From: Pedobacter glucosidilyticus DSM 23534
GTDB lineage: Bacteria; Bacteroidota; Bacteroidia; Sphingobacteriales; Sphingobacteriaceae
DNA length: 64,000 nucleotides
NCBI RefSeq assembly: GCF_000425145.1
Contig: NZ_KE384313.1
Span: forward strand, 124,001-188,000
Direction of reading: 5' to 3'
Shown piece after piece: positions 5,877 to 21,117 of this stretch (its first letter is position 1; every line of letters starts with the position of its first letter). Both the position numbers and the translations under genes were made by a program. Below the pieces are notes generated by a model, which was given only the letters and a program-made list of their open reading frames with translations, had not been told where the DNA came from and ran no database searches.

Positions 5877-6923
5877 TTATTTTAAAAACAAGCATGCATG
5901 CAAATGCTCTTTTACCAACATGCCCATGGTAGTCATTTTTTTAAACTTAGGCATTTTATGATATTTTGCGAGTTCTTCCCTCAAAGCTATTACTTTCTCT
6001 TCTGGGGCAATGATATCATGGCTCATCACACTAAAAATTTCTTTTAGCCTATAATGTGCCAATTTAACCCGATGGCTAATTAAGCTCCGCTCTTCTTGTT
6101 GATATTGTAGCATAGATTTCTCGTTCATGTGCTCCATTCCCATAAAAACAATATTGTTATTTTCTTTAAAATAATGAGGAAGATATAGTTTTAATCTGCT
6201 TTCATAAGACTGCTGGTCAAAATCTATAGCTCTGATACGGTATTGGTTGCCTTCAATATCCGGTGTAATATCAACTACAAAATTATAAGAGCGCATATCG
6301 CCTAAAAGCCTTACAAAACAACGCTCATTAAATTTAACAAACTCTTTGCTAATACGGGTTTGGTTAAAGCTACTATCGTTAAGATAGCTGTTTAAAAAAA
6401 CATCTCCAGGCAAACCAGGTATATGTTCCTCTATTAAAGTATGGTCATCTGTTAAATAATTGATTCGGTTTGGAGATAATATATGTTCTAATTCTAAGCC
6501 ATAAACCCTGCTGGCATCGGCAATTTTAACATAAAAATGGTCGTAATTATCATTTAACCTATTGATGATTCTTACCCTAAATGGTTTAGAATTACCAAAA
6601 GTGCAATAATCTATCCTAGAAACAGAAAGATGATCCATAACCTCCATACGACCAGATGTATGGAGCAGGGCGTAAATATATTTTAAACCAGGATAAAGTT
6701 CTTTCATCTCCGATTCATCATAATAAACCGTTTGCCATAAAGTATCTTGGTTATTTTTATCTAACAGCGGAGTAGAAAGATTAAAACGCAGCATATCTGC
6801 ATATACAACAGGAAGTTTAATTTCCCTATCATATTTTAGGAGGTATTGTTTTAAAGTTGGATTAACGGTATAAAGTATCTTCTTCTTAGAAGGTACATCA
6901 TTCCGCTCTTCAATAATATTCAT
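5877..6923 (-). CDS. Uncharacterised protein with kinase-like fold signatures
   Basis: 348 residues, no signal peptide, no named family recognised. Several landmarks occur in the order expected of a divergent protein-kinase-like fold: Lys133 in FYVKIAD, acidic residues at 144/146, a hinge-like EEHIPG (165-170), GDMRSYN with Asp209 and Asn214 spaced like a catalytic loop, and IDFDQ with Asp234/Asp236 like the metal-binding DFG/DFD. No glycine-rich loop is evident, so activity is uncertain; it may be an aminoglycoside-phosphotransferase/HipA-like relative or an inactive one. First gene of the operon with DUF389 and DUF4112 (6 bp gap). Kinase likeness is an inference from motif order. Confidence 0.6.
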   Translation of the reverse strand: MNIIEERNDVPSKKKILYTVNPTLKQYLLKYDREIKLPVVYADMLRFNLSTPLLDKNNQDTLWQTVYYDESEMKELYPGLKYIYALLHTSGRMEVMDHLSVSRIDYCTFGNSKPFRVRIINRLNDNYDHFYVKIADASRVYGLELEHILSPNRINYLTDDHTLIEEHIPGLPGDVFLNSYLNDSSFNQTRISKEFVKFNERCFVRLLGDMRSYNFVVDITPDIEGNQYRIRAIDFDQQSYESRLKLYLPHYFKENNNIVFMGMEHMNEKSMLQYQQEERSLISHRVKLAHYRLKEIFSVMSHDIIAPEEKVIALREELAKYHKMPKFKKMTTMGMLVKEHLHACLFLK

Positions 6924-7060: not shown

Positions 7061-8269
7061 TTATGAAGTAAACACATCATATTCTTTTTGCCAATATTGT
7101 ATTTTTCTGTTATACATAGCTTCATTAGCCAGATGCACACATATAGCCGTGGTGGCTCCTGTTAAAACATTTGATGGAGGATTTTTCTTAGTTACTATAC
7201 AATCAAAAAAATCTTTTAAGGCATACCAAGTTCCATCTTTACTTTTATCAGCTTCAATAGGGATTCCGCCATCTTTATTCCAAACAATTTTTGTGGCACC
7301 ACTAACACCATCAACGGTTTCTAATTCGGCTTTTGTTTCTTTTTCGGGATAAAAAACACCTTGGTTTACCAATAAAGAAACGCTTCCTTTAGTACCTTTT
7401 AATTTAAACAAATAACCGTCTTTAGCATTAGCGCAGGTAGCTCCGTAATTACCAATCATCCCATCTTTATCATACCTAAAAGTTGCTTGCACATTATCAA
7501 AAGTTTCACGTCCATCTTTATAATAATCTACACCTCCTGTTGCGTAAACTTCGGTTGGGTGCGTGTCAAAAGCCCAATTGATAAAATCAATTTGATGTGA
7601 AAGTAATTCGGCAGCTAAACCACCAGAATACTCTTTGTACATACGCCAGTTTATTTTTCTTTCTAAAGAAGGCTCGGGTACGGGTCTGCGCCAATTCCAG
7701 TTTCTATCCCACCTACAGTCTATCTGTGTTACTTTACCTAGATAGCCTTTATCAATCATTTCCTTTACTTTAAAGTATAGCGGCGTGTAACGGTATTGGT
7801 GGCCTACTTGCAAGGTTAAATGAGGATGCAACTGCTTAACTTTTACCAAATCTAAAGCTTGCGGGATATTGTAAGTCATGGCTTTTTCAAGATACACATG
7901 CTTCTCTGCTTTTAATGCTGCTAAAGCAATGTCATAGTGTGCATTAAGAGAAGTAGCAATAAGTACCGCTTGTACATCAGCTTCAGCTAAAAGCTTTTTA
8001 TAATCTTTGTAAGAAGTGATTTTTTCTCCACCTAATAACTTTTGCGTAGCTGCAAGTCTAAAATCTAAGGTATCGCAAATAGCAGTAACTTTAAATTGCT
8101 CTTTCAACTGCTGCATCACTTGAATAAGGCCATTTCCCCTATCCCCACAACCTATTACAGCAACCTTTAAAGGAGCATTTGCTGCAAAAGCATGTAATAG
8201 CTCTTGCTGCAAAAATAATCCTCCGGCTGTTATAAGACCTGTTTTTTTGATAAAATTTCTTCTTAGCAT
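7061..8269 (-). CDS. Tat-exported Gfo/Idh/MocA family oxidoreductase
   Basis: 402 residues. The N-terminus has LRRNFIKKTG followed by a hydrophobic stretch and AFA-ANA, a twin-arginine signal, so the folded, cofactor-loaded enzyme should be periplasmic. The Rossmann domain begins with VAVIGCGDRGNG; the EKAMTYN segment replaces the EKP motif common in the family. Such enzymes oxidise or reduce sugars or cyclitols with NAD(P), often tightly bound when exported. Last gene of the minus-strand operon DUF1080 - Gfo - Gfo, 38 bp after its paralogue. Substrate unknown; context suggests 3-keto-sugar chemistry on glycosides. Confidence 0.88.
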   Translation of the reverse strand: MLRRNFIKKTGLITAGGLFLQQELLHAFAANAPLKVAVIGCGDRGNGLIQVMQQLKEQFKVTAICDTLDFRLAATQKLLGGEKITSYKDYKKLLAEADVQAVLIATSLNAHYDIALAALKAEKHVYLEKAMTYNIPQALDLVKVKQLHPHLTLQVGHQYRYTPLYFKVKEMIDKGYLGKVTQIDCRWDRNWNWRRPVPEPSLERKINWRMYKEYSGGLAAELLSHQIDFINWAFDTHPTEVYATGGVDYYKDGRETFDNVQATFRYDKDGMIGNYGATCANAKDGYLFKLKGTKGSVSLLVNQGVFYPEKETKAELETVDGVSGATKIVWNKDGGIPIEADKSKDGTWYALKDFFDCIVTKKNPPSNVLTGATTAICVHLANEAMYNRKIQYWQKEYDVFTS

Positions 8270-8307
8270 TTCTAAGTATGATTAACGATAGCTATGAAAA
8301 AGTATTA

Positions 8308-9660
8308 TTAATATTTAAACACTTTTCCATTCACCATAACTTCTTGTGTTTTTTCATCAAACGTTGCTTTAGCACCTGTTCTTACGGCGGCATTGGTCAT
8401 AATTGTAGCAACAGAATGATAATATCCAGCTTCTACAGGTGCATTAGTTTCTTTTCTACTACGTATACACTCCATCCAATTACGCATGTGATTAGAAGTT
8501 AACCTATCTGCACCTGTATTGGCAGATGCAACTACCTTTTCTTCTTGGCTGGTTAAGCTTAGTTCTGGAAGCAGGTTAGGTTTTAGGCCCATGGCAGCAG
8601 CTTGTTTCTCTTGTAAACCACCTTTAGGGGATATTTTATTGGTATTTAAATTTAACTCGCCACCGTTAGCATAGTAAATCTCTGCTGGGCGCTCGTCTCC
8701 ATTGTGCATCCTAGAGCCAAATACCACTTGGAAACCTTTTTTCATGTCTTTATCGCCATAATCAAAAACTGCGGTTGTGGTATCCCAGTTTCTTCTGCCA
8801 TCTTTCCATTGGTAAATTCCACCATTAGCAACCACACTTCTTGGGTACATTAAGCCAGTAAACCAATGTACAGTGTCAATTTGGTGCGACATCCACTGCC
8901 CTGGCATGCCCGAAGAATATGGCCAGAATAAACGGTATTCTAAGTATTTTCTTGGATCCCATTCTTCAAATGGGCGATTCATTAAAAAGCGTTTCCAATC
9001 TGTATCTTCTTGTTTTAGTTTAGCCACTAAATCTGGTCGGCGCCATCTGCCAGGTTGGTTTACATTCCAGGTAAGTTCTACCATCGTGATATCGCCAAAT
9101 TTACCCTGTTGGATAAAATCTGCCGCAGCTTTATAATTAGCACCACTTCTTCTTTGAGAACCAATTTGGATAATTTGCTTAGAAGCTTTTATAGCTTTTA
9201 ATGCCGCTCTGTTATCTTCCATGGTTTCAGCAAAAGGCTTTTCGCAATAAACATCGCATTTAGCGTTAACAGCCTCTATAGCATGTAAAGCATGCTGAAA
9301 ATCTGCTGTACTTACAATGACAGCGTCCAAATCTTTCATGGCATACAATTCATCATTATTTCTACAGCCTTTTATATCATGGTTAAATTTTGATTTTAAA
9401 AGCTCTACCCCTAAATTTCTTCTATAGCTCCATAAATCAGAAACAGCTACCATATCAAAATTTAATTCCTGATGATGGTTTAAAAAGCATGGTAATAAGG
9501 TATCTCTAAAACGATCTGAAAAACCAACCGCACCTACACGTACCCTATCATTTGCACCTAAAATTCTACCATAACTTTTTGCACTGAAGCCCATAGCTCC
9601 AAAATATGTTCCAGCTGCTGCAATAGCAGACTGCTTTATAAATTTTCTACGTGAGTTCAT
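8308..9660 (-). CDS. Tat-exported Gfo/Idh/MocA family oxidoreductase, 450 residues
   Basis: The N-terminus SRRKFIKQSAIAAAG is a near-ideal twin-arginine signal. The nucleotide-binding domain follows (VRVGAVGFSDR), with the family lysine in CEKPFAETM. The second half carries WRRPDL and the MPGQWMSHQIDTVHWF segment typical of the longer Bacteroidota members of the family. It sits 22 bp downstream of the DUF1080 gene and 38 bp upstream of a second exported oxidoreductase. Pairing with DUF1080 resembles Bacteroidota loci that oxidise a glycoside to its 3-keto form and then eliminate the aglycone; the assignment here is inferred from family and neighbourhood. Confidence 0.9.
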   Translation of the reverse strand: MNSRRKFIKQSAIAAAGTYFGAMGFSAKSYGRILGANDRVRVGAVGFSDRFRDTLLPCFLNHHQELNFDMVAVSDLWSYRRNLGVELLKSKFNHDIKGCRNNDELYAMKDLDAVIVSTADFQHALHAIEAVNAKCDVYCEKPFAETMEDNRAALKAIKASKQIIQIGSQRRSGANYKAAADFIQQGKFGDITMVELTWNVNQPGRWRRPDLVAKLKQEDTDWKRFLMNRPFEEWDPRKYLEYRLFWPYSSGMPGQWMSHQIDTVHWFTGLMYPRSVVANGGIYQWKDGRRNWDTTTAVFDYGDKDMKKGFQVVFGSRMHNGDERPAEIYYANGGELNLNTNKISPKGGLQEKQAAAMGLKPNLLPELSLTSQEEKVVASANTGADRLTSNHMRNWMECIRSRKETNAPVEAGYYHSVATIMTNAAVRTGAKATFDEKTQEVMVNGKVFKY

Positions 9661-9682
9661 TTTATTTTAATGTCTTTAAGGT

Positions 9683-11035
9683 TTATAGTTGTTTAATTTT
9701 TAAGCTTCTGAAAGCTACAGCATCGCCATGGTCTTGCAGTAAAATTCTTCCTTTAGGAGCCATGCCAAAATTTTTCCAGTCTTTATACTTACTTTCTGAT
9801 ACCAATTTTAAGAACTCTGCCGAACCTCTGGTATAATTAAGGATATTATGGCCGTTTAACCAATATTCAACCCTATTATCAGGGTAAACCCTGATGATAC
9901 CTTTATTCCACTCTCCTATCGCTTTCTGCGCAGCAGGTATTTTTTTTGAAGTCATTAAATCATATAAAGATCCCAATGTACGGTTACCATCTTTACCTAA
10001 TTTTGCGTCAGGATGTGTAGCATCATCTAAAATTTGATACTCTGGACCAATAGCAGAACCTTTATTGCCTTCGCTTTCTGTAACGAAGTATTTTACACCA
10101 CTGTTAGCACCTTTAGAAAGTTTAAAATCAAACTGAAACTCAAAAGCACTGTACTCTTTTAAAGTAACAATATCACCACCGTTGGTAGACTCGCTTCCAT
10201 CTGCTTTTTTAACTCTTAACTCGTTATCAACAACTTCCCAGCCTTGGGTAGGGAATGTGGTTTTATAAGCGCCTCGCCATTGCGAAGTGCTTTTACCATC
10301 AAATAACAAACTGTAACCTTTAGCTTTTTCTTGCGGAGATAAATGATTGGGGATATAATTTGCGATGAAAATACCATCTGGCTTAGAAGGTTGTAAATTG
10401 GTAGTTTGTATTCTGATATTTCTCCATCTGATTTCTTTGCCCGGAGTCTCTTCTTTCCTGATAGAATGCACTTGTAGTGCAATAAAACCTGATGCGGTTT
10501 CTGCATCTATAACATGAGCCGTAGGGATACCATTTACCCAAGTTCTTATCGTATTACCTATAGCTTCTATACGATATTTATTCCATTCGCCCGGTTTAAA
10601 AGCTTTCTTACCTTCTGGGTTAAGTTCCAGATTATAAAGCCAACCCCTTCTGGCTTCATCATAAATACCACCACTCCAAGCTCTGCTAGAAGGGTCAATT
10701 TCCATTTGATAGCCATGAACTCTACCATCACGATAGTCTGCTTTACTTAAACTTCTAAACTGTACGCCAGAATTCATGCTGTTATCAACAAGAAGTTCTA
10801 GTTCCAAAATAAAATCGCCATAGTTTTTTTCGGTAGCCATAAAAGAGTTAGGTTCATTGGCAACTGTAGTACCTACAATCTCGCCGTTTCTAACTTCATA
10901 TTTGGCTTTTCCGTTAAGTTGTTTCCAGCCTTTAAAGTCTTTTCCGTTAAATAAAGACTCCCATTTACTCTGGGCAATCGTTTGCCCAAAAGCTGTAAAT
11001 GTTAATAACAATACAATGCTTGTTTTAAATTTCAT
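9683..11035 (-). CDS. Secreted double-DUF1080 (3-keto-disaccharide hydrolase-like) protein
   Basis: 450 residues with a signal peptide ending near residue 21 (FGQTIAQ). Two DUF1080 lectin-like beta-sandwich domains are visible: about residues 24-211 (SLFNGKDFKGWKQLNGK; NSGVQFRS) and about 222-450 (LLFDGKSTSQWRG; NSGVKYFV; GPEYQILDD). The repeated W-x-x-x and NSGV blocks identify both copies. DUF1080 proteins are known as 3-keto-disaccharide hydrolases acting on sugars first oxidised by Gfo/Idh/MocA enzymes. This is the first gene of the operon with two such exported oxidoreductases, which strongly suits that role. Divergent from the PIG-L gene. Confidence 0.87.
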   Translation of the reverse strand: MKFKTSIVLLLTFTAFGQTIAQSKWESLFNGKDFKGWKQLNGKAKYEVRNGEIVGTTVANEPNSFMATEKNYGDFILELELLVDNSMNSGVQFRSLSKADYRDGRVHGYQMEIDPSSRAWSGGIYDEARRGWLYNLELNPEGKKAFKPGEWNKYRIEAIGNTIRTWVNGIPTAHVIDAETASGFIALQVHSIRKEETPGKEIRWRNIRIQTTNLQPSKPDGIFIANYIPNHLSPQEKAKGYSLLFDGKSTSQWRGAYKTTFPTQGWEVVDNELRVKKADGSESTNGGDIVTLKEYSAFEFQFDFKLSKGANSGVKYFVTESEGNKGSAIGPEYQILDDATHPDAKLGKDGNRTLGSLYDLMTSKKIPAAQKAIGEWNKGIIRVYPDNRVEYWLNGHNILNYTRGSAEFLKLVSESKYKDWKNFGMAPKGRILLQDHGDAVAFRSLKIKQL

Positions 11036-11210
11036 TTTTGAATTGATAAATTGGTTAGCGAGCTCTAATCTAAAAAATTTAAATCTAAATATCTTTAAGA
11101 GGTCAAAACTTTCTTGAAATTTGATTATAAGTTTTGTAATTTTTTTGTGCTATAAGTTCATAAGCAAAAATTTATTATTTTACTTAGCCGAAGTTTAAAA
11201 GAAAGCACCC
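11036..11210. promoter_or_regulatory. Divergent promoter region of the carbohydrate locus
   Basis: 175 bp between the DUF1080 operon (minus) and the PIG-L/symporter operon (plus). AT-rich with poly-T and poly-A tracts. I could not fix a clear TAnnTTTG element or operator palindrome on either strand; the divergent layout alone suggests shared control. Confidence 0.4.
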
Positions 11211-13637
11211 ATGAAACTTAGAAACCTGCTCTTATATTTTTTAGCGCTTCCTTATTTTTCTTTTGCCCAAAACAATGCTTTACCCAATGCAGCAGAGCTC
11301 AAACTAGATTTAAAAAAATTAGATGTTCTAGGAAGTGTGCTTTACATTGCAGCTCATCCTGATGATGAAAACACACGTTTATTAAGCTACTTAGCTAAAG
11401 AAAAATTGGTAAGGACTGCTTATCTTTCTTTAACCAGAGGAGATGGCGGGCAAAATCTTATCGGTAATGAGCAATCTGAAGAATTAGGTTTGATAAGAAC
11501 GCAAGAACTATTAGCTGCCCGTAGAACGGATGGTGCTATCCAATTTTTTACCAGAGCAAATGATTTTGGTTTTTCTAAAACTGCCGATGAAACTTTTAAT
11601 ATCTGGAATAAGAAAGAAATATTAAGTGATGTGGTGTACATCATCAGGAAATTTAAACCCGATGTTATCATCACCCGTTTTCCTAATGATGCAAGAGCAG
11701 GGCATGGCCATCATCAAGCATCATCTATTTTAGCGCAAGAGGCTTTTAAAGCTGCTGCAGACCCAAAACAGTTTCCAGAACAGTTAAAAGAAGTAAGCGT
11801 ATGGCAAACTAAAAGAATTCTTTGGAACACTTATAATTTTGGCTCAGCTAATACAACCGCCAATGATCAACTAAAAATAGATGTTGGCTTATTTAACCAC
11901 TTGCTAGGAAAAGGCTATGGGGAAATTGCTGCCGAAAGTAGATCGATGCACAAAAGTCAAGGTTTCGGCTCTGCCAAACAAAGAGGCTCAAGTATAGAAT
12001 ATTTTAGCAGTTGGCAAGGTGAGCTTCCTCAAAAAGATTTATTTGAAGGGATAGATTTAAGCTGGAACAGACTTCAAATTAAAACTGATTTAGCTAAAGA
12101 TATTAAAAGCATACAAGAGAAATTTTACATAGAAAACCCAGGTTTAATTGTTGAGGATTTAATTAAACTTCATCAAAAAATAGCGGCTTTACCAGATAGC
12201 TTTTATAAAAATATCAAGTTAGAAGAAGTAAAAAAATTGATTCTGCATTGCAGTGGAACTTGGTTAGAAGCTCAAGCTAAACAAGCTTTTGCCGCACAAA
12301 ATACTGCTGTAGAGTTTAACATAAGTGCAGTTACGCAATATCCAAACGTAAAAATCACAGCTTTTAACCAAAAAACAGATGATTTGAATATCAATCAACT
12401 CTATAGTGCCAAAAATCAAACACAAATAAATAAAATTACGCAGCCTTATTGGTTGGTTAACCAGCATCCTATAGGGCAATATGTTTTAAATAAACAATCA
12501 GATATCCTACAACCTGATGGACCATTGGCGCATACCATTCAAGTTAAACTTGATTTTAATAATTACAGTTTAGATTATGAAATTCCTGTCATTTATAAAT
12601 ATACAGACCAGGTAAGGGGCGAAGTTTATCAACCTTTAGTAATAGCACCACCTGTAACCATTAATCCGGAGAATAAAGTATTGCTTTTCCCTAATCAAGG
12701 TGAAAAAGAAATTCGCGTAAGGTTAAAAGCATTTAAAGAAAACCTTAATGGCGAATTAATTCCTGAATTACCAAAGAATTGGAAAATAAGCCCTGCTAAG
12801 CATAGCTTCAATTTTAAAAATTCTGGAGAAGAGCTTAACCTTACGTTTACAATTACCCCAGCTACAACAGATGAAAGTGTTGTTTTAACATTTACAGCTC
12901 AAATAGCCAATGAGGCTTATCAAAAAGCCTTTCATGAAATTAAATATGAGCATATCCCTACCATAAGCTATTTCTCTGAGGCCGAAGTAAAACTCACCAA
13001 ACTTGATATTAAAACAACCGGAGATAAACTTATTGGCTACATCAACGGAGCTGGAGATTTAATTCCAGAATCGCTAAAGCAAATAGGTTATCAGGTAAAT
13101 ATCCTTACAGAAAAAGAAATGCTAACCGGAGATTTATCTGCTTACGATGCTATTATAACTGGAGTAAGAGCTTTTAATACCAATGAAAAATTACCATTTG
13201 CAAGACAAAACCTACTAAAATACATAGAAAATGGTGGTACTTTGTTGGTCCAGTACAATGTAAACAGACCATTGCTAAGTACCGAAATTGGTCCTTATCC
13301 ATTTAACATCACAAGAGATAGGGTTACTGAGGAAAATGCTAAAGTATTTTTCTTAAAGCCAGAGAGTAAAGTTTTAAATTACCCTAATAAATTAACTACT
13401 AAAGATTTTGATGGCTGGATACAAGAAAGAGGTTTGTATTTTGCAGATAATGCCGATAACCGATACGAACAACCCTTAGGCATGAATGATGCCGGAGAGC
13501 AACAATCATCAGGTGCACTTTTAGTAACACCTTATGGGAAAGGGAAATTTATTTATACCGGTTTATCATTTTTTAGAGAATTACCTGCTGGCGTTGCAGG
13601 CGCTTACCGTTTATTTGTAAACTTGATAAGTAAATAA
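11211..13637 (+). CDS. Secreted PIG-L family deacetylase fused to a C-terminal amidotransferase-like domain
   Basis: 808 residues with an N-terminal signal peptide (cleavage near AQNNA). Residues ~40-250 are a PIG-L/LmbE zinc deacetylase: AHPDDE with His49, Asp51 and Asp52, and the downstream AGHGHHQAS histidine cluster. A middle beta-sandwich-like part (about 470-600) resembles an NPCBM/NEW3-type module. The last ~200 residues (LIGYINGAGD..YDAIITGVRAFNTNEKL..GGTLLVQYN) resemble a class I glutamine-amidotransferase-like (ThuA/BatD-like) domain. The family removes N-acetyl groups from amino sugars or their conjugates. The stop codon overlaps the ATG of the next gene (TAATG), so expression is coupled to the membrane protein and symporter downstream. 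Confidence 0.87.
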   Translation: MKLRNLLLYFLALPYFSFAQNNALPNAAELKLDLKKLDVLGSVLYIAAHPDDENTRLLSYLAKEKLVRTAYLSLTRGDGGQNLIGNEQSEELGLIRTQELLAARRTDGAIQFFTRANDFGFSKTADETFNIWNKKEILSDVVYIIRKFKPDVIITRFPNDARAGHGHHQASSILAQEAFKAAADPKQFPEQLKEVSVWQTKRILWNTYNFGSANTTANDQLKIDVGLFNHLLGKGYGEIAAESRSMHKSQGFGSAKQRGSSIEYFSSWQGELPQKDLFEGIDLSWNRLQIKTDLAKDIKSIQEKFYIENPGLIVEDLIKLHQKIAALPDSFYKNIKLEEVKKLILHCSGTWLEAQAKQAFAAQNTAVEFNISAVTQYPNVKITAFNQKTDDLNINQLYSAKNQTQINKITQPYWLVNQHPIGQYVLNKQSDILQPDGPLAHTIQVKLDFNNYSLDYEIPVIYKYTDQVRGEVYQPLVIAPPVTINPENKVLLFPNQGEKEIRVRLKAFKENLNGELIPELPKNWKISPAKHSFNFKNSGEELNLTFTITPATTDESVVLTFTAQIANEAYQKAFHEIKYEHIPTISYFSEAEVKLTKLDIKTTGDKLIGYINGAGDLIPESLKQIGYQVNILTEKEMLTGDLSAYDAIITGVRAFNTNEKLPFARQNLLKYIENGGTLLVQYNVNRPLLSTEIGPYPFNITRDRVTEENAKVFFLKPESKVLNYPNKLTTKDFDGWIQERGLYFADNADNRYEQPLGMNDAGEQQSSGALLVTPYGKGKFIYTGLSFFRELPAGVAGAYRLFVNLISK

Positions 13638-13768
13638 TGGATAAAAAAGTAAAAGATACCGAGCTCCCACCCTTTATTAAATCGTGGGGTCAATTTTATC
13701 GTCTGCTGGTTTACTGGCTTATTATCCTTATTATAATTTTTTACCTCATTACCATTCGCTTCTCATGA
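13637..13768 (+). CDS. 43-residue single-pass membrane protein coupled to the symporter
   Basis: A short ORF, easily missed by gene callers: ATG at 13637 overlapping the PIG-L stop (TAATG), stop TGA at 13766-13768 overlapping the symporter start (ATGA). The product has a charged N-terminus (MDKKVKDTELPPF), then an aromatic patch and one transmembrane helix of roughly residues 23-40 (LLVYWLIILIIIFYLIT), ending RFS. Its size, topology and double translational coupling suggest a small accessory subunit of the sodium:solute symporter, comparable in principle to small subunits known for other SSS transporters. No family is recognised. A GTG-initiated longer symporter reading frame would overlap it and is less likely. 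Confidence 0.75.
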   Translation: MDKKVKDTELPPFIKSWGQFYRLLVYWLIILIIIFYLITIRFS

Positions 13769-15453
13769 GTTTAATAGATTGGTTTGTACTTGCCTTTACC
13801 ATTATTTTTATTGTAGTTTATGGCATCTGGAAAAGTAAAGCAAGTAAACATATAGACGGTTATTTACTTGGCGACCGTTCTTTACCTTGGTACCATGTGG
13901 GTTTATCGGTAATGGCCACACAAGCCAGCGCCATTACTTTTTTATCAGCACCAGGCTTGGCTTACACCGATGGAATGCGCTTTGTCCAATTTTATTTTGG
14001 CTTACCCTTAGCCATGATTGTGCTTTGCATCACCTTCATCCCTATTTTTCATAAGTTAAAGGTTTATACCGCTTATGAGTTTTTAGAACAAAGATTTGAT
14101 TTAAAAACCAGAGTTTTAACGGCTTTTTTATTTCTTATACAAAGAGGCTTATCTACCGGAATAACGATTTATGCTCCGTCTATCATCCTATCAACCATAT
14201 TAAATGTAGACCCTACTTATACCACTTTAATTATAGGTTCTGTAGTGATATTATATACCTTTTATGGTGGCACAAAAGCTGTTTCTTATACCCAGCTTTT
14301 ACAAATGAGTATCATATTTTCGGGCTTGTTTTTAGCCGGCTTTGTAGTGGTTGCACTGTTACCCGTTTCTGTAGATTTTACCGATGCTTTAGACATTGCA
14401 GGCAAAATGGGTAAAATGAATGTAATAGATTGGGAGTTTGATTTAAACAATAGATATACCGTTTGGACAGGATTAATAGGCGGCTTTTTTTTACAGCTGT
14501 CTTATTTTGGTACAGATCAATCTCAGGTTGGCCGCTATTTAACCGGAAGCTCTGTAGGGCAAAGTAGAATGGGCTTATTGATGAATGGCTTGCTAAAAGT
14601 ACCCATGCAGTTTTTAATTTTATTGATAGGGATATTGGTTTTCTGTTTTTATCAATACCAAAAACCACCTGTATTTTTTAATACCTATGAAATTAATAAA
14701 GTAGAAAAAAGTGCTTATGCTGATGAATTTAAACAAAAAGAACAAGCATTTGATGCCGCCTTTGAAGCTAAAAAACAAAAAGTTATAGCACTGGAAAACG
14801 CTATTAACCAGCAGAAAGATATAAGCTCTTTAAAAACAGATGTAGTATTAGCAAATAAAACCCTACAAGAAAAAAGAGAAGAAGCATTAGCTGTTATGAA
14901 AAAAAACGACCCTAATGCAGATACTGACGATACCAATTACGTTTTCCTAAGTTTTGTTACACAATATTTACCACAAGGTTTAATTGGTTTATTGGTAGCT
15001 ATTGTTTGCTTAGCTTCCATGGGTTCTACAGCTAGTGCCTTAAACTCATTGGCATCCACCACAAGCGTTGATATTTATAAAAGATTAATCAATAAGACAG
15101 GTAGCGATCTAAAATACCTCAACGTAAGTAAAGCCATAACCCTATTTTGGGGTATTTTAAGCCTAGCAATGGCTTTGTTTGCAGGTAAATTGGGTAATTT
15201 ATTAGAAGCTGTTAACATCCTAGGCTCTTTATTCTATGGAACCATCCTAGGAATTTTTCTAGTAGCTTTCTATTTTAAAAAGATTGGTGGTAAAGCTGTG
15301 TTTACAGCAGCACTCATTACAGAAGTATTTGTTTTTGCAGCCTATTATTTTGATGTTATGGCTTATTTATGGCTTAACCTTTTTGGCTGTGTATTGGTTA
15401 TTGCTTGGGGCTATGTATTCCAATATTTACAAAAAGAAAAATCAATAGTATAA
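13765..15453 (+). CDS. Sodium:solute symporter (SSS family)
   Basis: 562 residues from the ATG at 13765, which overlaps the preceding stop; a GTG at 13684 would add 27 residues that overlap the 43-residue gene and lack membrane features. The start fits the family pattern of a first helix right at the N-terminus (MSLIDWFVLAF). About 13 transmembrane helices are visible, with the SSS core GLSVMATQASAITFLSAPG and YGGTKAVSYTQLLQ. Roughly residues 300-392 form an unusual hydrophilic, Lys/Glu/Ala-rich coiled-coil-like insertion between helices. It probably imports the sugar released by the neighbouring enzymes with sodium; the substrate is not visible in the sequence. Confidence 0.92.
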   Translation: MSLIDWFVLAFTIIFIVVYGIWKSKASKHIDGYLLGDRSLPWYHVGLSVMATQASAITFLSAPGLAYTDGMRFVQFYFGLPLAMIVLCITFIPIFHKLKVYTAYEFLEQRFDLKTRVLTAFLFLIQRGLSTGITIYAPSIILSTILNVDPTYTTLIIGSVVILYTFYGGTKAVSYTQLLQMSIIFSGLFLAGFVVVALLPVSVDFTDALDIAGKMGKMNVIDWEFDLNNRYTVWTGLIGGFFLQLSYFGTDQSQVGRYLTGSSVGQSRMGLLMNGLLKVPMQFLILLIGILVFCFYQYQKPPVFFNTYEINKVEKSAYADEFKQKEQAFDAAFEAKKQKVIALENAINQQKDISSLKTDVVLANKTLQEKREEALAVMKKNDPNADTDDTNYVFLSFVTQYLPQGLIGLLVAIVCLASMGSTASALNSLASTTSVDIYKRLINKTGSDLKYLNVSKAITLFWGILSLAMALFAGKLGNLLEAVNILGSLFYGTILGIFLVAFYFKKIGGKAVFTAALITEVFVFAAYYFDVMAYLWLNLFGCVLVIAWGYVFQYLQKEKSIV

Positions 15454-15490: not shown

Positions 15491-17137
15491 TTATTTTCTA
15501 AATCCTACTCTGGATTTTGGCTGCTTAAATTGTGGTGTTGATTTAGGATTAATCTGAGGGTCTCCTACACTACTCATGGCGCATCTAAAACCAATTTCAG
15601 AACTTGCTTCACCTTGATCTAAATATCTTCTAGTACCAGGATTTAACCAATAAGCTCTATCATTCCAAGAACCGCCTTTGTAAACTTTTGAACGATCACT
15701 AATTAAAGTTATCTTCCCGTAAAGGTCTAAATTTTCATTATCAATATAACCTCTTTGGTCTGCATTAAATGTTGGTACTACAGAAGCCATTTTATCGTTT
15801 TTAGGTTCTGGAGTGCTTGGGCTAGGCTCGGTAGCATTACCGTATTTACTCTTGTGTATTTCGTAAGGGTCTTTTTTACCGGCAGTGGCTTTAACCTTTT
15901 TAGGTACATTGGTTTTACCTATCGTTTGTATTTGTCCTTTATCATCATAAGCATTGTTTTCAAACACATTACCACGATAAGGGTTAAAATCTTCTACTTC
16001 ATCAAAAGATAATTGGCGGTAAGTATCGCTTGTCCATTCGCTTACATTACCTGCCATGTTATATAATCCAAAATCATTTGGAGTGTATGCTTTTACTGGT
16101 GCTGTAATATCTGCACCATCATTTAAGTATCCAGCAACACCCATATTATCACCGCCGCCTCTTTTAAAGTTAGCATAAATTAAACCTCTGGTATCTTTAT
16201 TAGGAGAACGTACCCCTATACCATACCAAGGGTAAATTTTACCACTTTTTACAATGCTGTTATCGCCATCGCTTTTTAAGGCTAAAGCTGCGTATTCCCA
16301 CTCGGCTTCAGTTGGTAATCTATACCTGCCAGGTGTAAAAACGCCATCCTCTATCTTGGCAATTCTTCCAGTATTTGCCCCCTTTTTAGCACCACCTTGT
16401 GGTGCTGCATTCACTACATTGGGTTTAGGTGCACCTTTACCTAAATCATTATACTGGCCGTTTAAATAAAGGTCTAAATCAAAGGGCTGGGTATTTACAT
16501 TGTTTGTACCTGCTCCTTTACCGCCTTTTGCTGTTCCCATTTTAGCGGCCGAATAGGTACCCCAATCATTCATAATATTTTTATTACGAAGGATATTTTC
16601 GTTAACCACATTAGTTCTCCAATCACAATAAGCATTTGCTTGTTCCCAAGTAACACCCACAACTGGATAATCTTGGTAAGCTGGATGTCTTAAATAATTG
16701 TTTACATAAGGCTCGTTATAAGCCAATGGACTTCTCCAAACTAAAGTATCTGGCAAAGCTTCATAATACCATCTGGTATCTGCAGCTACTTCTTTTATCC
16801 AGTTTAAATATTCCAGCCAATCTAAATTTGCTACTTCGGTTTCATCCATGTAAAATGTAGCTACAGAAACTCTTCTTTTAGGAGATGCATAATCATAACC
16901 TATATCATCTATAGAAGAGCCCCCTAATACGAAAGTTCCTCCTTCTATATGCACTAAACCTGGACCTGGAGTTGGTTTAGCTTTTGGCATTACTTGTAGA
17001 GAACCTGGTCTTTTCTGATTGTATTGAGCCCCTGTTTTACCAGATATTTTTGACGGACCAGCATTCTTTTGGCAAGAACTTAACATCATCATCAAACCTA
17101 TGCAAGCCCAAAGAAAAGTAATGGTATTTTTTCTCAT
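15491..17137 (-). CDS. gldJ: Gliding motility / T9SS lipoprotein GldJ
   Basis: 548 residues with a lipoprotein signal (lipobox LSSC, Cys22). The rest is a formylglycine-generating-enzyme-like (SUMF1, FGE-sulfatase) domain: GGTFVLGG, DETEVANLDW, YPVVGVTWEQANAYCDWRT, RLPTEAEWEYAA, NMAGNVSEWTSD, and KGGSWNDRAYW...EIGFRCA at the end. Domain motifs are split by low-complexity inserts rich in Asn/Gly/Lys, as in GldJ/GldK. GldJ rather than GldK is chosen because it is divergent from porU-porV, the arrangement seen in Bacteroidota, and no gldL/M/N follow. GldJ forms part of the outer-membrane-linked ring supporting T9SS and gliding; catalytic FGE activity is not expected. Confidence 0.9.
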   Translation of the reverse strand: MRKNTITFLWACIGLMMMLSSCQKNAGPSKISGKTGAQYNQKRPGSLQVMPKAKPTPGPGLVHIEGGTFVLGGSSIDDIGYDYASPKRRVSVATFYMDETEVANLDWLEYLNWIKEVAADTRWYYEALPDTLVWRSPLAYNEPYVNNYLRHPAYQDYPVVGVTWEQANAYCDWRTNVVNENILRNKNIMNDWGTYSAAKMGTAKGGKGAGTNNVNTQPFDLDLYLNGQYNDLGKGAPKPNVVNAAPQGGAKKGANTGRIAKIEDGVFTPGRYRLPTEAEWEYAALALKSDGDNSIVKSGKIYPWYGIGVRSPNKDTRGLIYANFKRGGGDNMGVAGYLNDGADITAPVKAYTPNDFGLYNMAGNVSEWTSDTYRQLSFDEVEDFNPYRGNVFENNAYDDKGQIQTIGKTNVPKKVKATAGKKDPYEIHKSKYGNATEPSPSTPEPKNDKMASVVPTFNADQRGYIDNENLDLYGKITLISDRSKVYKGGSWNDRAYWLNPGTRRYLDQGEASSEIGFRCAMSSVGDPQINPKSTPQFKQPKSRVGFRK

Positions 17138-17272
17138 GCGATTTTTAAATTTTCAAAGCTTAAAAATAATAAATTATCTTAATCAAGATGATTAATTTTA
17201 TTGCATATTAAGTTTAAGCTTTTGTTTACCTATTTTTAGTTATTAAAACGAACTTTAAAACTTTAAGTTACA

Positions 17273-17280
17273 CAAATATA
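17273..17280 (-). promoter_or_regulatory. Candidate -7 element for gldJ
   Basis: On the minus strand TATATTTG matches TAnnTTTG, about 135 bp upstream of the gldJ start. It lies just 16 bp upstream of the porU start on the other strand, so the two divergent T9SS genes have tightly packed control regions. Confidence 0.4.
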
Positions 17281-17295
17281 AATATTTATTTAAGA

Positions 17296-20200
17296 TTGAA
17301 AATATCTGTATATCAAGAAGTTAAGATAATTTTGTTTTTGCTATTTGTACCTTTTTTAATAAAAGCACAAAACATCAGTATCAAAAAAACAATTGATTGG
17401 ACTCTTTTATCAACAAACAAAAACATTTCAAATGTTAAGGTTGATCCTGAATTTCCAAGATATTTACCAGAAAAATTTGGTCATTTACCCTTGGTCCATC
17501 TTAAAATACCTATTGCTTTAACTCAAGTTTCGGTACTTATTCATCCGCTGCAAACTCAAGTCTCTAACCAGTATAGCCAGCAACAAAGTCAAATTTCGCA
17601 AACAATATGGTTTCAATACCAGGTAGTTGAGGAACAGAAAAAAAGATGGTTGATTATTGATTTATTACCTTTTTATAAAAGTTCAAGCACTATCTACCAA
17701 TTATTAGCATATAACATTCAAGTAAGTGATAAGGCCACTGGACAAAAAAACAACTCATTTAGATTAAGTAATGCTTCTAATTCTGTTTTAGCCAATGGAA
17801 ATTGGTATAAAATAGGCTTAAAAAATGAAGGTATTTATAAGCTAGACTATAATTTTTTCAGAAATATGGGGATAGCTGTTGACCAGTTAAACCCACGCTT
17901 AATTAAAATTTTTGGTCAAGGTGGCAGAACCTTAGCTCAGGAAAATAATGCTGCCAGATACGATGATTTATTTGAAAACGCCATCAAAGTTATCGGTGAA
18001 GAGGACGGTAAATTTGACCCACAAGATTATGTCTTATTTTATGCAGAAGGAAATATTTTCTGGGAGTTTAACCCGCAAAATCAGAAATTTATTCATCACA
18101 GAAATCACTATTCTGACTCTTCTTTTTATTTCATCCAAACAGAGGGTGCAAATGGCAAACGTATAAATAAGCAATCCTACCTCAATCAAAACCCAAATTT
18201 CAACACATCTTCTTATACCGATTTACAGCTTCATGAACAAGAAAATTATACCGCTATCATGGATAATTTAAAATCAGGTAGAGTATGGTATGGCGAAGAT
18301 TTCGAATTTAACAATAACCAAAATTTTAGTTTTAATTTGGATGGAATAAAAATTACAGATTCTGTTTACATAGAAGCCGATATGGCTATAAGGGCAGGTC
18401 AAAACTCAGCAGCAGAACTAAAAATTAATAACCAAACCCTTTTTAATTTAAACGCTAGTGCAGTACCCTTAAGTTTTGACACTGATTATGCTGCGCCTGC
18501 ACATCAATCCCTTTCTTTTTTACCAAATACCAATAATTTTTTGGTTGGTATAAGCTATAATAAGCCCAATTCCTTGGCTAATGCTTGGTTAAATTATATC
18601 AGATTTAGTTGTAAAAAAGATTTAAGAGTAAACAATTGGCTTAGGTTTAGGGATATTTCATCAAGTGGGTCTAACAACATAACACAATTTAACTTTACTG
18701 GCAACTTAACAGGTAAAGAAATTTGGGATATTACCAACCCTTTACTACCTATTGCAATTGATTACTCAACCAATTCTTTTATTTATCCTACACCTAACTT
18801 AAAAGAATTTTTACTTTTTGATATGCAGCAGGTACAAGAACCTAAATTCATCAAAAAAGTAGCTAACCAAAATCTACATGCTTTAAATCCGGTTGATATG
18901 GTTATCGTATCGCCACCAGAATTTTTATCAGAAGCTAAAAGATTGGCCGATTTTAGACTTAAAGAGCAAAATATCAGAACACATATTGTAACACCAGAAC
19001 AAATTTATAATGAGTTTTCATCCGGAGCCAGAGATGCCAGTGCAATAAGAGATTTTATGAGAATGCTTTATAAAAGAGCTGGTATAAATAATTTACCTAA
19101 ATATTTACTGCTGTTTGGTAGTGGAAGTTTTGATAACAGGAATATCCAATTCAAGAACAATAATTTTATTGTAACTTATCAATCAAGAAATTCACTATCG
19201 CCAACACAAAGCTATACTTCTGATGATTATTTTGCTTTACTAGATGATGATGAAGGCAATTTTCCAGAAAATTTTGTTGATGCCGCTGGAATGTTAGATA
19301 TAAGTGTTGGTAGATTACCCATAACATCCTTAAAAGAAGCTAAAGATATAGTAGATAAACTGATTTATTATACACAAACTGCTCAACTAGGCAGTTGGAG
19401 AAACCAAATCAGCATCATAGCTGATGATGAAGATGCTAATACCCATCTTAATCAAGCAGAAGCCAATGCAAATATCCTACAGCAGCAAAAACCCAATTTT
19501 AACATCCAAAAAATATATTTTGATGCCTATCAACAAGAAAGTACTGTATCTGGAAACCGTTACCCTGATGTAAAAAAAGCAATTGATGATAACCTAAATA
19601 ATGGGGTAATGCTGATGAATTATACCGGACACGGCGGAGAAGGAGGTCTAGCTGCAGAAAGAATACTTACTGTAGATGACATTAACAATTGGAAAAACAC
19701 TCATTTACCCATCATTTTTACAGCAACTTGCTCTTTTAGCAGGTGGGATGATCCTTTAATACGCTCTGCCGGTGAGCTCGCCTTAAAAAAAGAAAAACAC
19801 GGTGTAATAGCTTTATTTACAACCACCAGAATTGTATTTGCATCTTACAACTTTGATTTAAACCAAAGTTTTCTAAATGCTCTTTGCCAAATGGCCAATC
19901 AAAATAGAAGTATAAGTTTTGGCGAAGTTTTTACCATGGCAAAAAACAATAATATAGGCGGTTTAAATATCAATGCTAGAAATTTTACCCTTTTAGGAGA
20001 CCCTTCAACATTATTTCCTATCCCCTACAATAAAGTAAATACTTTAAGCGTTAACGAAAAATTAGTAACTCATCCTGATACCCTAAAAGCATTGGCAAAA
20101 GTTAAAATTACAGGACAAATACTTGCCCCAAATCAAACTTTATTAAGTTCTTTTAATGGTACTGTTTATCCTGTAATTTATGATAAAGCTACAGTTACTA

Positions 20201-21117
20201 CTACACTAGGTCAAGATGCAGGTACCTTCGGTAGCATTCCACAAGCTTTTAATCATCAAACCAATATCATTTACAAAGGTAAAGCCAGCGTTAAAAACGG
20301 GCAATTTAGTTTCGAGTTTGTAGTACCTAAAGACATTAACCTACAATATGGTGAAGGAAAAATAAGCTATTATGCTGATAACCAAGAAATAGACGCCAGC
20401 GGAAACTTAAGCAATATTATTGTTGGTGGCATAGCCAATAACGCTAATACCGATAGCGAAGGACCAACCATAGAACTTTTCTTAAATGATGAAAAATTTG
20501 TTTCGGGAGGTATCACCAATACTTCACCTTTTTTATTGGTTAACTTGTTAGATGAAAACGGTATCAATACTACAGGTATTGGTATAGGGCATGATATTGT
20601 AGCTACTTTAACTGCTCAAAATGAAAGTACCAACATCATTTTAAACAATTGGTACCAAGCAAAAACAGACGATTATCAGGCTGGTACCATTAAATATCCT
20701 TTAGGAGATTTAAAACCCGGTATGTACACCTTAAAATTAAAAGCATGGGATACTTTTAACAATTCATCAGAGCAAACGATAGATTTTGAAGTAAAGAATT
20801 CTGAAAAATTGGAAATCGCACATGTATTTAATTACCCAAACCCTTTTACAACCAAAACCAGTTTCCAGTTCGAACATAATCAACCCAACCAGGATTTGGA
20901 TGTGCAGGTAAATATTTATACTATTGCAGGTAAGCTGATTAAAACTATTAACCAACCGATTATAAGTTCTGGAACTAGGGTAGATCATATATTTTGGGAT
21001 GCTAAGGATAATTTTGGAGATAAATTAGCAAGAGGGGTGTATATTTATGAGCTGAAAGTACGCTCAAATACAAATGGCGAAATTGTAAAAAAAACAGAAA
21101 AATTAGTTATCCTATAA
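17296..21117 (+). CDS. porU: Type IX secretion system sortase PorU
   Basis: 1273 residues, gingipain-like (peptidase C25) family. PorU sits on the outer membrane, removes the C-terminal sorting domain of T9SS cargo and joins it to lipopolysaccharide. The signal peptide occupies about residues 1-25 (ending IKAQ). The catalytic dyad is visible as His779 in NYTGHGG and Cys812 in TATCSFSRWDDP. The C-terminal ~90 residues (FNYPNPFTTKTSFQFEH..ARGVYIYELKV) form a FlgD/sorting-domain-like fold. The only in-frame start that keeps the signal peptide is TTG at 17296; no in-frame ATG lies just upstream. porV follows after 32 bp; gldJ is divergent. Confidence 0.95.
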   Translation: MKISVYQEVKIILFLLFVPFLIKAQNISIKKTIDWTLLSTNKNISNVKVDPEFPRYLPEKFGHLPLVHLKIPIALTQVSVLIHPLQTQVSNQYSQQQSQISQTIWFQYQVVEEQKKRWLIIDLLPFYKSSSTIYQLLAYNIQVSDKATGQKNNSFRLSNASNSVLANGNWYKIGLKNEGIYKLDYNFFRNMGIAVDQLNPRLIKIFGQGGRTLAQENNAARYDDLFENAIKVIGEEDGKFDPQDYVLFYAEGNIFWEFNPQNQKFIHHRNHYSDSSFYFIQTEGANGKRINKQSYLNQNPNFNTSSYTDLQLHEQENYTAIMDNLKSGRVWYGEDFEFNNNQNFSFNLDGIKITDSVYIEADMAIRAGQNSAAELKINNQTLFNLNASAVPLSFDTDYAAPAHQSLSFLPNTNNFLVGISYNKPNSLANAWLNYIRFSCKKDLRVNNWLRFRDISSSGSNNITQFNFTGNLTGKEIWDITNPLLPIAIDYSTNSFIYPTPNLKEFLLFDMQQVQEPKFIKKVANQNLHALNPVDMVIVSPPEFLSEAKRLADFRLKEQNIRTHIVTPEQIYNEFSSGARDASAIRDFMRMLYKRAGINNLPKYLLLFGSGSFDNRNIQFKNNNFIVTYQSRNSLSPTQSYTSDDYFALLDDDEGNFPENFVDAAGMLDISVGRLPITSLKEAKDIVDKLIYYTQTAQLGSWRNQISIIADDEDANTHLNQAEANANILQQQKPNFNIQKIYFDAYQQESTVSGNRYPDVKKAIDDNLNNGVMLMNYTGHGGEGGLAAERILTVDDINNWKNTHLPIIFTATCSFSRWDDPLIRSAGELALKKEKHGVIALFTTTRIVFASYNFDLNQSFLNALCQMANQNRSISFGEVFTMAKNNNIGGLNINARNFTLLGDPSTLFPIPYNKVNTLSVNEKLVTHPDTLKALAKVKITGQILAPNQTLLSSFNGTVYPVIYDKATVTTTLGQDAGTFGSIPQAFNHQTNIIYKGKASVKNGQFSFEFVVPKDINLQYGEGKISYYADNQEIDASGNLSNIIVGGIANNANTDSEGPTIELFLNDEKFVSGGITNTSPFLLVNLLDENGINTTGIGIGHDIVATLTAQNESTNIILNNWYQAKTDDYQAGTIKYPLGDLKPGMYTLKLKAWDTFNNSSEQTIDFEVKNSEKLEIAHVFNYPNPFTTKTSFQFEHNQPNQDLDVQVNIYTIAGKLIKTINQPIISSGTRVDHIFWDAKDNFGDKLARGVYIYELKVRSNTNGEIVKKTEKLVIL

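Follow-up and report, generated by a model that had tools for sequence, protein, structure and literature searches.

A conserved DUF1080–oxidoreductase module, putatively for exported 3-keto glycoside cleavage, meets an independent deacetylase–symporter pair in Pedobacter glucosidilyticus

We analysed 64,000 nucleotides of the Pedobacter glucosidilyticus DSM 23534 genome (NCBI RefSeq assembly GCF_000425145.1, contig NZ_KE384313.1, positions 124,001 to 188,000 of the forward strand), a stretch that we refer to as the window. Five adjoining genes between its positions 7,061 and 15,453 had been predicted to form one exported pathway of oxidative glycoside cleavage. Our best explanation, to which we assign a probability of about 0.57, is that the locus consists of two groups. 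The leftward trio, which encodes a protein with two DUF1080 domains and two oxidoreductases of the Gfo/Idh/MocA family (GfoA and GfoB), would act as an exported 3-keto glycoside-cleavage module that closes its redox cycle on the same cofactor; the PIG-L-type deacetylase and the sodium:solute symporter (SSS) encoded on the opposite strand are independent of it. The features of the locus, with profile scores and lengths in amino acids (aa), are as follows.

7061..8269, minus strand: GfoA, the second Gfo/Idh/MocA protein with a twin-arginine translocation (Tat) mark, 402 aa (PF01408, 64.1 bits)
8308..9660, minus strand: GfoB, Tat-marked Gfo/Idh/MocA protein, 450 aa (PF01408, 45.3 bits)
9683..11035, minus strand: double-DUF1080 protein, 450 aa, Sec-like leader (PF06439, 290.5 bits, two stretches)
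11036..11210, no strand: 175-bp intergenic region separating the divergent halves; similar in the window and its two closest loci
11211..13637, plus strand: secreted PIG-L-type deacetylase, 808 aa, judged to lie outside the module (PF02585, 70 bits)
13765..15453, plus strand (open reading frame from GTG 13684): SSS sodium:solute symporter, judged to lie outside the module (TIGR00813, 214.9 bits)

The five open reading frames (ORFs) were all found where the original prediction had placed them, and Pfam upheld its family calls (GFO_IDH_MocA twice, 3keto-disac_hyd twice in one protein, PIG-L and SSF). The genes do adjoin here, but they are not a single unit, because, of the genomes searched, only that of the window and the three closest to it have the two halves side by side.

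The double-DUF1080 protein and GfoB form a conserved module

We compared 80 double-DUF1080 loci, the best 80 of 399 confirmed relatives, with flanks of up to 10 kb per side; 56 of the 80 were longer than 20 kb. A GfoB orthologue, defined in a tblastn count by 55% identity or more across 380 or more residues, lay downstream of the double-DUF1080 gene on the same strand in 53 loci, and the gap was 150 bp or less in 47 of them; in the window, GfoB starts 22 bp downstream. Three of the 53 are missing from the 51 loci of an ORF-based count, in which one further locus may differ, the ends having been set differently. GfoA orthologues were present in 6 of the 80 loci (L036–L039, L046 and L072), all titled Pedobacter, and a 129-aa piece of GfoA stands at the end of contig L053. 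Judged from record titles, the module spans several Bacteroidota families, including Sphingobacteriaceae, Chitinophagaceae, Leadbetterellaceae, Spirosomataceae and others. We conclude that the double-DUF1080 protein and GfoB are a genuine conserved module and that GfoA is an optional add-on. The use of two exported oxidoreductases, which had been proposed as part of the design, is thus not a feature of the conserved unit. Nor need the chemistry require two: a single Gfo/Idh/MocA enzyme, D3dgpA, is reported to oxidize a glycoside and re-reduce the 3-oxo sugar with its bound NAD (nicotinamide adenine dinucleotide; PMC11239390).

Among the 27 loci in which no GfoB orthologue was found, five end less than 3 kb downstream of the double-DUF1080 gene (L061, L071, L074, L075 and L108), and eight, mainly from Flavihumibacter and its kin, hold a different Gfo protein upstream; L061 and L075 belong to both sets. 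The loci with a substitute Gfo protein represent a partner swap. This protein, found in L055, L056, L057, L061, L063, L064, L065 and L075, is 53–57% identical to a protein encoded elsewhere in the window genome (L167, 8873–10273).

Export signals and conserved residues of the module proteins

Both Gfo proteins are predicted Tat substrates, as originally proposed: their leaders carry twin arginines, and the genome encodes TatC. Residues R4, R5 and F7 of GfoB are invariant in an alignment of the window protein with 43 of the 51 GfoB ORFs (44/44), and R3, R4 and F6 of GfoA are invariant in eight aligned sequences (8/8), including the window protein and a paralogue on contig C7. The DUF1080 and PIG-L proteins begin with hydrophobic Sec-like leaders, judged by eye from the sequence without a predictor.

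The double-DUF1080 protein scored 290.5 bits against the PF06439 cut-off of 26.8, and across residues 24–450, its whole mature length, it matches Protein Data Bank (PDB) entry 4jqt (508.9 bits). This structure, BT3469 of Bacteroides thetaiotaomicron (PMC6560043), has the same tandem architecture over those residues. It is named in the PDB as a putative glycosyl hydrolase or hypothetical protein, and the literature passages that mention it state no function. The C-terminal half (about 239–450) matches the single-domain structures 3hbk, 8rr2, 8tda, 8v31 and 9fbe, of which 8rr2 is entitled 3-keto-disaccharide hydrolase domain-containing. By domain comparison it is this half that resembles single-domain 3-keto-glycoside hydrolases, and it has E-x-Q-x-x-D and Q-x-H positions in common with the single-domain DUF1080 protein of the same genome. 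The N-terminal half carries a different set of residues, likewise conserved. One of the two halves may only bind sugar, because part of 4jqt is described as superposing on a CBM66-like domain of levanase (PMC6560043). A DUF6807-like protein, confirmed for one representative, is encoded near the double-DUF1080 gene in 10 of the 80 loci (L038, L040, L041, L044, L045, L051, L072, L088, L109 and L110), directly upstream in the Pedobacter ones.

GfoA and GfoB are members of the Gfo/Idh/MocA family by homology (64.1 and 45.3 bits against the PF01408 cut-off of 24). In GfoB, 44/44 sequences retain K141 (the EKP lysine), H259 (the SHQID histidine) and D75, a set that presumably fits a working NAD enzyme; in GfoA, E128, K129 and H225 are invariant in 8/8. 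The pairs K141/H259 and K129/H225 are candidate catalytic residues, at the EKP-type lysine and histidine positions that we take from inositol dehydrogenase. NAD(P)-dependent dehydrogenases of this family usually have a GxGxxG/A dinucleotide loop. GfoA has a canonical one, GCGDRG, with G40, C41, G42, R44 and G45 invariant in 8/8. The GfoB loop reads G-[FY]-[SA]-[DN]-R-[FHA] and departs from the canonical pattern, with glycine in 0/44 sequences at the second place and, at the third, no glycine and two alanines; a profile alignment to DgpA sets it opposite G-C-G-G-I-A.

A structural model of GfoB (predicted local distance difference test (pLDDT) 82.5) has solved structures of the Gfo/Idh/MocA family as its top matches. 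Its neighbours include DgpA1 (Z 32.9), 1,5-anhydrofructose reductase (32.8), WlbA (32.4), NAD-dependent glycoside hydrolases (8qc8 and 8qc2, 31.9) and a glucuronide-3-dehydrogenase (30.3). We rejected a substrate assignment from fold: Foldseek ranked 8tdi first and a second aligner ranked it 29th among the 50 rows listed, which are near ties (Z 29.1–32.9) and therefore select no function. The 8tdi structure is the P2B11 glucuronide-3-dehydrogenase (E 3.2e-18), but it is 17–18% identical to GfoB, 1,5-anhydrofructose reductase matched nearly as well (6.4e-18), and the match is no evidence of substrate. The literature matches listed for P2B11 concern, by their titles, unrelated topics. Among the matches listed for the Gfo proteins in a PDB sequence search with strict limits, none was named GH109.

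The PIG-L/SSS pair travels independently

The original prediction had included deacetylation by the PIG-L protein and sodium-driven uptake by the symporter as steps of the pathway. An orthologue search in 121 genomes of the family argues against both. PIG-L and SSS genes lay within 5 kb of one another in 87 of the 95 genomes holding both, on the same strand in all 87 (the remaining 8 lacked this linkage). By contrast, of the 81 genomes that have PIG-L together with a full-length double-DUF1080 match, 4 have the two no more than 100 kb apart, 12 half-length matches being excluded from this count. The four are the window genome and three whose double-DUF1080 proteins are 96–99% identical to that of the window. 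In the locus comparison, PIG-L and a close SSS orthologue occurred in 2 of the 80 double-DUF1080 loci (L036 and L037), and a distant SSS protein (26–27% identity) in four more. The double-DUF1080 protein of L036, a P. glucosidilyticus metagenome-assembled genome, is 98–99% identical to that of the window.

The symporter is followed in the window by a GldJ-like gene, and across 12 same-genus GldJ rows SSS lay within 1 kb of GldJ in exactly the same four genomes. As both adjacencies are confined to these four, a single recent rearrangement better explains the five-gene arrangement than does a joint pathway. The window, L036 and L037 share a similar 175-bp divergent region, which is uninformative because the genes are equally alike at that distance. 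We conclude that PIG-L/SSS is an independent, common deacetylase–symporter pair and that two unrelated gene groups meet by chance in the window. The pair are very probably bystanders to the glycoside-cleavage module, and since it travels separately we have dropped deacetylation and SSS uptake from the model.

The motifs AHPDDE (A48–E53) and GHG-x-H (G164, H165, G166 and H168) are kept in 15/15 aligned PIG-L sequences; what we take to be the PIG-L zinc motif, AHPDDE with a distal histidine, is thus intact. Characterized PIG-L proteins are sugar de-N-acetylases. We did not infer a substrate from a fold search with the full model (pLDDT 76.1, predicted template modelling score 0.63), in which diacetylchitobiose deacetylase and MshB matched part of the protein with low scores among unrelated beta-rich proteins. 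No title among the literature matches listed links PIG-L with sodium symporters. The symporter scored 214.9 bits to TIGR00813, for which the cut-off is 184. Its first 27 residues are probably untranslated and its start is probably ATG 13765, not GTG 13684, because 10 of 13 orthologous ORFs begin at the ATG 13765 residue; the other three hold the same motif internally. A third ORF family, of 281 aa in the members seen and putatively DUF2911, was encountered close to PIG-L/SSS in 7 of the 14 loci compared (L174, L175, L177, L179, L180, L181 and L183).

Gene surroundings and related loci in the genome

Nine proteins encoded between 4554 and 21117 were scanned. None matched SusC, SusD or a glycoside hydrolase family, in agreement with the original prediction, and the SusC/SusD pair of a polysaccharide utilization locus was absent among these nine. 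This absence is not a trait of the module, as both kinds of gene occur at other double-DUF1080 loci: SusD-like ORFs, named by eye without a profile, lie at most 10 kb away in 8 of 80 loci, and 5 of 80 have a glycoside hydrolase family 3 (GH3) gene, Pfam-confirmed for one representative. The flanking genes scanned encode a DUF389 protein and a protein without a family on one side and GldJ-like and PorU proteins on the other. The family-less protein (5877–6923, minus strand, 348 aa), beside the DUF389 gene, had no Pfam or NCBIfam match at E 0.001. Adjoining SSS, 15491–21117 encodes the GldJ-like lipoprotein (409 bits, below the cut-off of 458) and PorU, the type IX secretion sortase.

Elsewhere in the genome, contig C16 (L166, 3796–13943) carries genes for a GMC oxidoreductase, gluconate 2-dehydrogenase subunit 3, two Gfo proteins, a single-domain DUF1080 protein and cytochrome c, together with three xylose-isomerase-like TIM barrels and an MFS transporter. 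One of its Gfo proteins scored 480.0 bits to the BT_2158 model, below the cut-off of 750. C16 is a full 3-keto glycoside locus of the GMC type, so the genome already has a known system, from which the window module is distinct. Relatives of these GMC and subunit 3 proteins, which are of the electron-exporting type, lay within 10 kb of the double-DUF1080 gene in 3 of the 80 loci (L077, L091 and L113), a count that we take as favouring the proposed module.

On contig C7 (L167, 3271–13056), nagA (301.7 bits) is followed by a LacI-like regulator, identified by eye, and several twin-arginine Gfo-like proteins, one of them 43% identical to GfoA. This setting hints that GfoA-like enzymes may act on amino sugars.

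Relation to known 3-keto glycoside systems

A Bacteroides BT2156–BT2160 and Alistipes AL 3-keto glycoside pathway is said to have been described by Nasseri et al. in Nature in 2024. The comparison with Bacteroides DUF1080/Gfo loci that had been suggested for the window holds as to the kinds of protein: the pathway likewise combines exported Gfo/Idh/MocA dehydrogenase(s) with DUF1080, and has two Gfo genes side by side. It does not extend to the profile scores. GfoA scored 80.3 bits against the BT_2158 model NF058561 (cut-off 750), and against the BT_2159 model NF058563 (cut-off 650) GfoA and GfoB scored 37.2 and 27 bits; GfoB is likewise far below the BT_2158 cut-off. The window DUF1080 protein is moreover tandem, and the TIM-barrel gene is absent from the window locus.

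The Caulobacter LacABC/DUF1080 3-ketolactose pathway resembles the module in that DUF1080 is the proposed periplasmic 3-keto-glycoside hydrolase (PMC9007349). There, oxidation is by membrane-bound LacABC; the GMC, subunit 3 and cytochrome c combination of that kind is absent from the window locus and present on C16. A putative lactose dehydrogenase is also described in a Pedobacter, the genus of the window (PMC9007349). The C-/O-glycoside 3-oxidoreductases of the DgpA type (7xr9 and 9m3d) share with GfoB the Gfo/Idh/MocA family, and are reported to bind NAD and run a redox-neutral cycle (PMC11239390). They are among its nearest folds and profile matches, but the glycine loop is altered in GfoB, and the parts of the DgpA source that we drew on contain no DUF1080 pairing.

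Uronate genes accompany the module in some clades

Genes for UxuA occurred in the flanks of 16 of the 80 loci, for UxaC in 15 and for either in 22, of which 13 hold GfoB. Pfam and NCBIfam confirmed one representative of each, as mannonate dehydratase and glucuronate isomerase; the best score of an accompanying short-chain dehydrogenase, a fragment, was to D-mannonate oxidoreductase, below the model cut-off. Gene order varies: UxuA comes after GfoB in L089, L090 and L093 and before DUF1080 in L086, L097 and L099, and a short-chain dehydrogenase, UxuA and UxaC run upstream in L103. The 16 UxuA loci compare with a chance expectation of 0.33 in 50 of the 80 genomes; these 50 were chosen and include all 16 UxuA loci, sizes were rounded, fragments were counted as copies and relatedness was left uncorrected. 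As a control, UxuA and UxaC were found at 1 of 14 PIG-L loci of about 8 kb on each side (L182), a sample too small to separate 22/80 from background on its own.

On a quick double-DUF1080 tree the uxu label changes at least 7 times on well-supported branches and 10 times in all with all 80 loci taken, compared with 19.5 in shuffles; the count is 8 with 19 short-flank loci left out. The association is clustered yet repeated on the tree. It suggests that uronosides are one substrate class of the module, and hexuronosides are the likely substrates in clades where the module stands beside uxuA/uxaC. In Thermogutta, DUF1080 has been tied to growth on xanthan, which contains glucuronate (PMC5673643); no title among the literature matches listed reports a DUF1080–uxu link.

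Proposed mechanism and its alternatives

The core of the original prediction, that a 3-keto sugar is formed by oxidation and that cleavage takes place outside the cytosol, is the best reading of a DUF1080 protein paired with an exported Gfo/Idh/MocA protein. GfoB would be exported folded by Tat with its cofactor and would oxidize the glycoside at C3; the double-DUF1080 protein would then cleave the 3-keto glycoside by elimination and hydration, and the released 3-keto sugar would be re-reduced by the same bound cofactor, in GfoB or, where present, GfoA. Because the same cofactor re-reduces the sugar, the net reaction would be hydrolysis in the periplasm without an outside electron acceptor. 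If a single oxidoreductase with DUF1080 suffices, this would account for GfoB being the regular partner and GfoA a supplement. What we observed are the families, the export motifs, the pairing and the independence of PIG-L/SSS; the chemistry, the redox closure and the substrate are inferred.

That a sugar is oxidized and re-reduced on the same membrane side, as was also predicted, agrees with published chemistry. Purified D3dgpA contains bound cofactor, with NAD(H) at a near-equimolar level, the 3-oxo sugar serves as re-oxidant and the kinetics are reported as ping-pong (PMC11239390). Deleting BT2158, which is described as a periplasmic glycoside 3-dehydrogenase, abolishes growth on trehalose, leucrose and palatinose (PMC11300592), DUF1080 is the proposed 3′-ketolactose hydrolase in Caulobacter and BT2157 is cited as a 3-ketotrehalose hydrolase (PMC9007349). 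For glucosinolates in vitro, BT2158 with either BT2156 or BT2157 sufficed (PMC12385236, a review).

Several observations weigh against this mechanism. The dinucleotide loop of GfoB is without its second and third glycines in 44/44 sequences, so that cofactor binding is not assured and we classify GfoB from its homology and fold without treating it as a proven dehydrogenase. GfoB scored 91.1 bits against the NF058561 cut-off of 750, its orthologue was not found in 27 of the 80 loci, and our literature search gave no assay of this double-DUF1080/GfoB subfamily. Reports on related systems also include contrary results: in Pedobacter GW460-11-11-14-LB5 no lactose phenotype was seen for any of 10 DUF1080 genes (PMC9007349), strains deleted for BT2157 or for BT2158 showed no growth defect on raffinose-family sugars (PMC11501099), and in Bacteroides fragilis BT2157 and BT2158 were insufficient for glucosinolates, BT2156 or BT2159 also being needed (PMC12385236). 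Since the glucosinolate and raffinose-family results differ from a two-protein model, partners and substrates vary, and a second partner may matter in some hosts. As to substrate, 2 of the 22 uxu-linked loci fall in the window's half of the midpoint-rooted tree and 20 in the other half, and the two UxuA genes of the window genome are on other contigs; for these reasons we do not extend a uronoside substrate to the window module.

The altered loop, next to a canonical one in GfoA and a GMC locus in the same genome, is the basis of an alternative in which GfoB is no working dehydrogenase but a sugar-binding or isomerizing partner of DUF1080, with GfoA or the C16 GMC enzyme as the oxidant. We consider this unlikely: K141, H259 and D75 are invariant in all 44 sequences, and with GfoA in 6 and GMC in 3 of the 80 loci, most loci would be without a nearby oxidant if GfoB were inactive. 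It is quite unlikely that GfoB or GfoA alone is an NAD-dependent glycosidase, like the oxidoreductive sulfoquinovosidases, which performs all steps in one active site with DUF1080 as an accessory, perhaps sugar-binding, protein. The folds closest to the GfoB model include such hydrolases (8qc8 and 8qc2), DUF1080 resembles binding modules, as in the superposition of part of 4jqt on the CBM66-like levanase domain (PMC6560043), and CBM66 and DUF1080 annotations are reported to overlap in Thermogutta (PMC5673643); but the 50 fold rows listed are near ties, and the close coupling to DUF1080 seen in 47 of the 80 loci favours a shared reaction.

The window module could also draw on C16, acting on 3-keto glycosides made by its GMC/cytochrome system, with electrons passing to respiration and GfoB serving only as a reductase. 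The genome does hold that gene set, with its own single DUF1080, two Gfo and three TIM-barrel genes, and in three related loci the two systems lie no more than 10 kb apart. We regard this as very unlikely, as the DUF1080 and Gfo genes of C16 give it partners of its own and in 77 of the 80 double-DUF1080 loci the flanks covered contain no GMC relative. That all five genes form one pathway, in which PIG-L deacetylates an N-acetylated glycoside and SSS imports the product, is highly improbable. The adjacency, the shared 175-bp region, the intact zinc motif and the activity of characterized PIG-L proteins speak for it, but PIG-L lies near double-DUF1080 in 4 of 81 genomes, all one close group, PIG-L and SSS stand together as a separate pair in 87 of 95, and the SSS–GldJ adjacency in those same four genomes fits one recent rearrangement.

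The reading that we prefer, an exported 3-keto glycoside-cleavage module beside an unrelated pair, also admits a bolder form. In this form, the double-DUF1080 protein and GfoB would make up a stand-alone exported system of two proteins, widespread in Bacteroidota, for the cleavage of glycosides, including uronosides, via a 3-keto intermediate without an outside electron acceptor, and the rebuilt G-F-S-D-R-F loop of this Gfo/Idh/MocA clade would hold the cofactor unusually, perhaps permanently. We put this forward tentatively, as a possible but rather doubtful extension.

Oxidative glycoside cleavage is a recently recognized alternative to classical glycosidases, and the module is probably a conserved variant of this known strategy. 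The adjoining deacetylase and symporter, which make a single pathway a tempting but false reading, are a separate common pair. A module that joins a tandem DUF1080 protein to one exported oxidoreductase, near glucuronate genes in some clades, would widen the substrates of 3-keto chemistry to uronosides and add a compact two-protein system.

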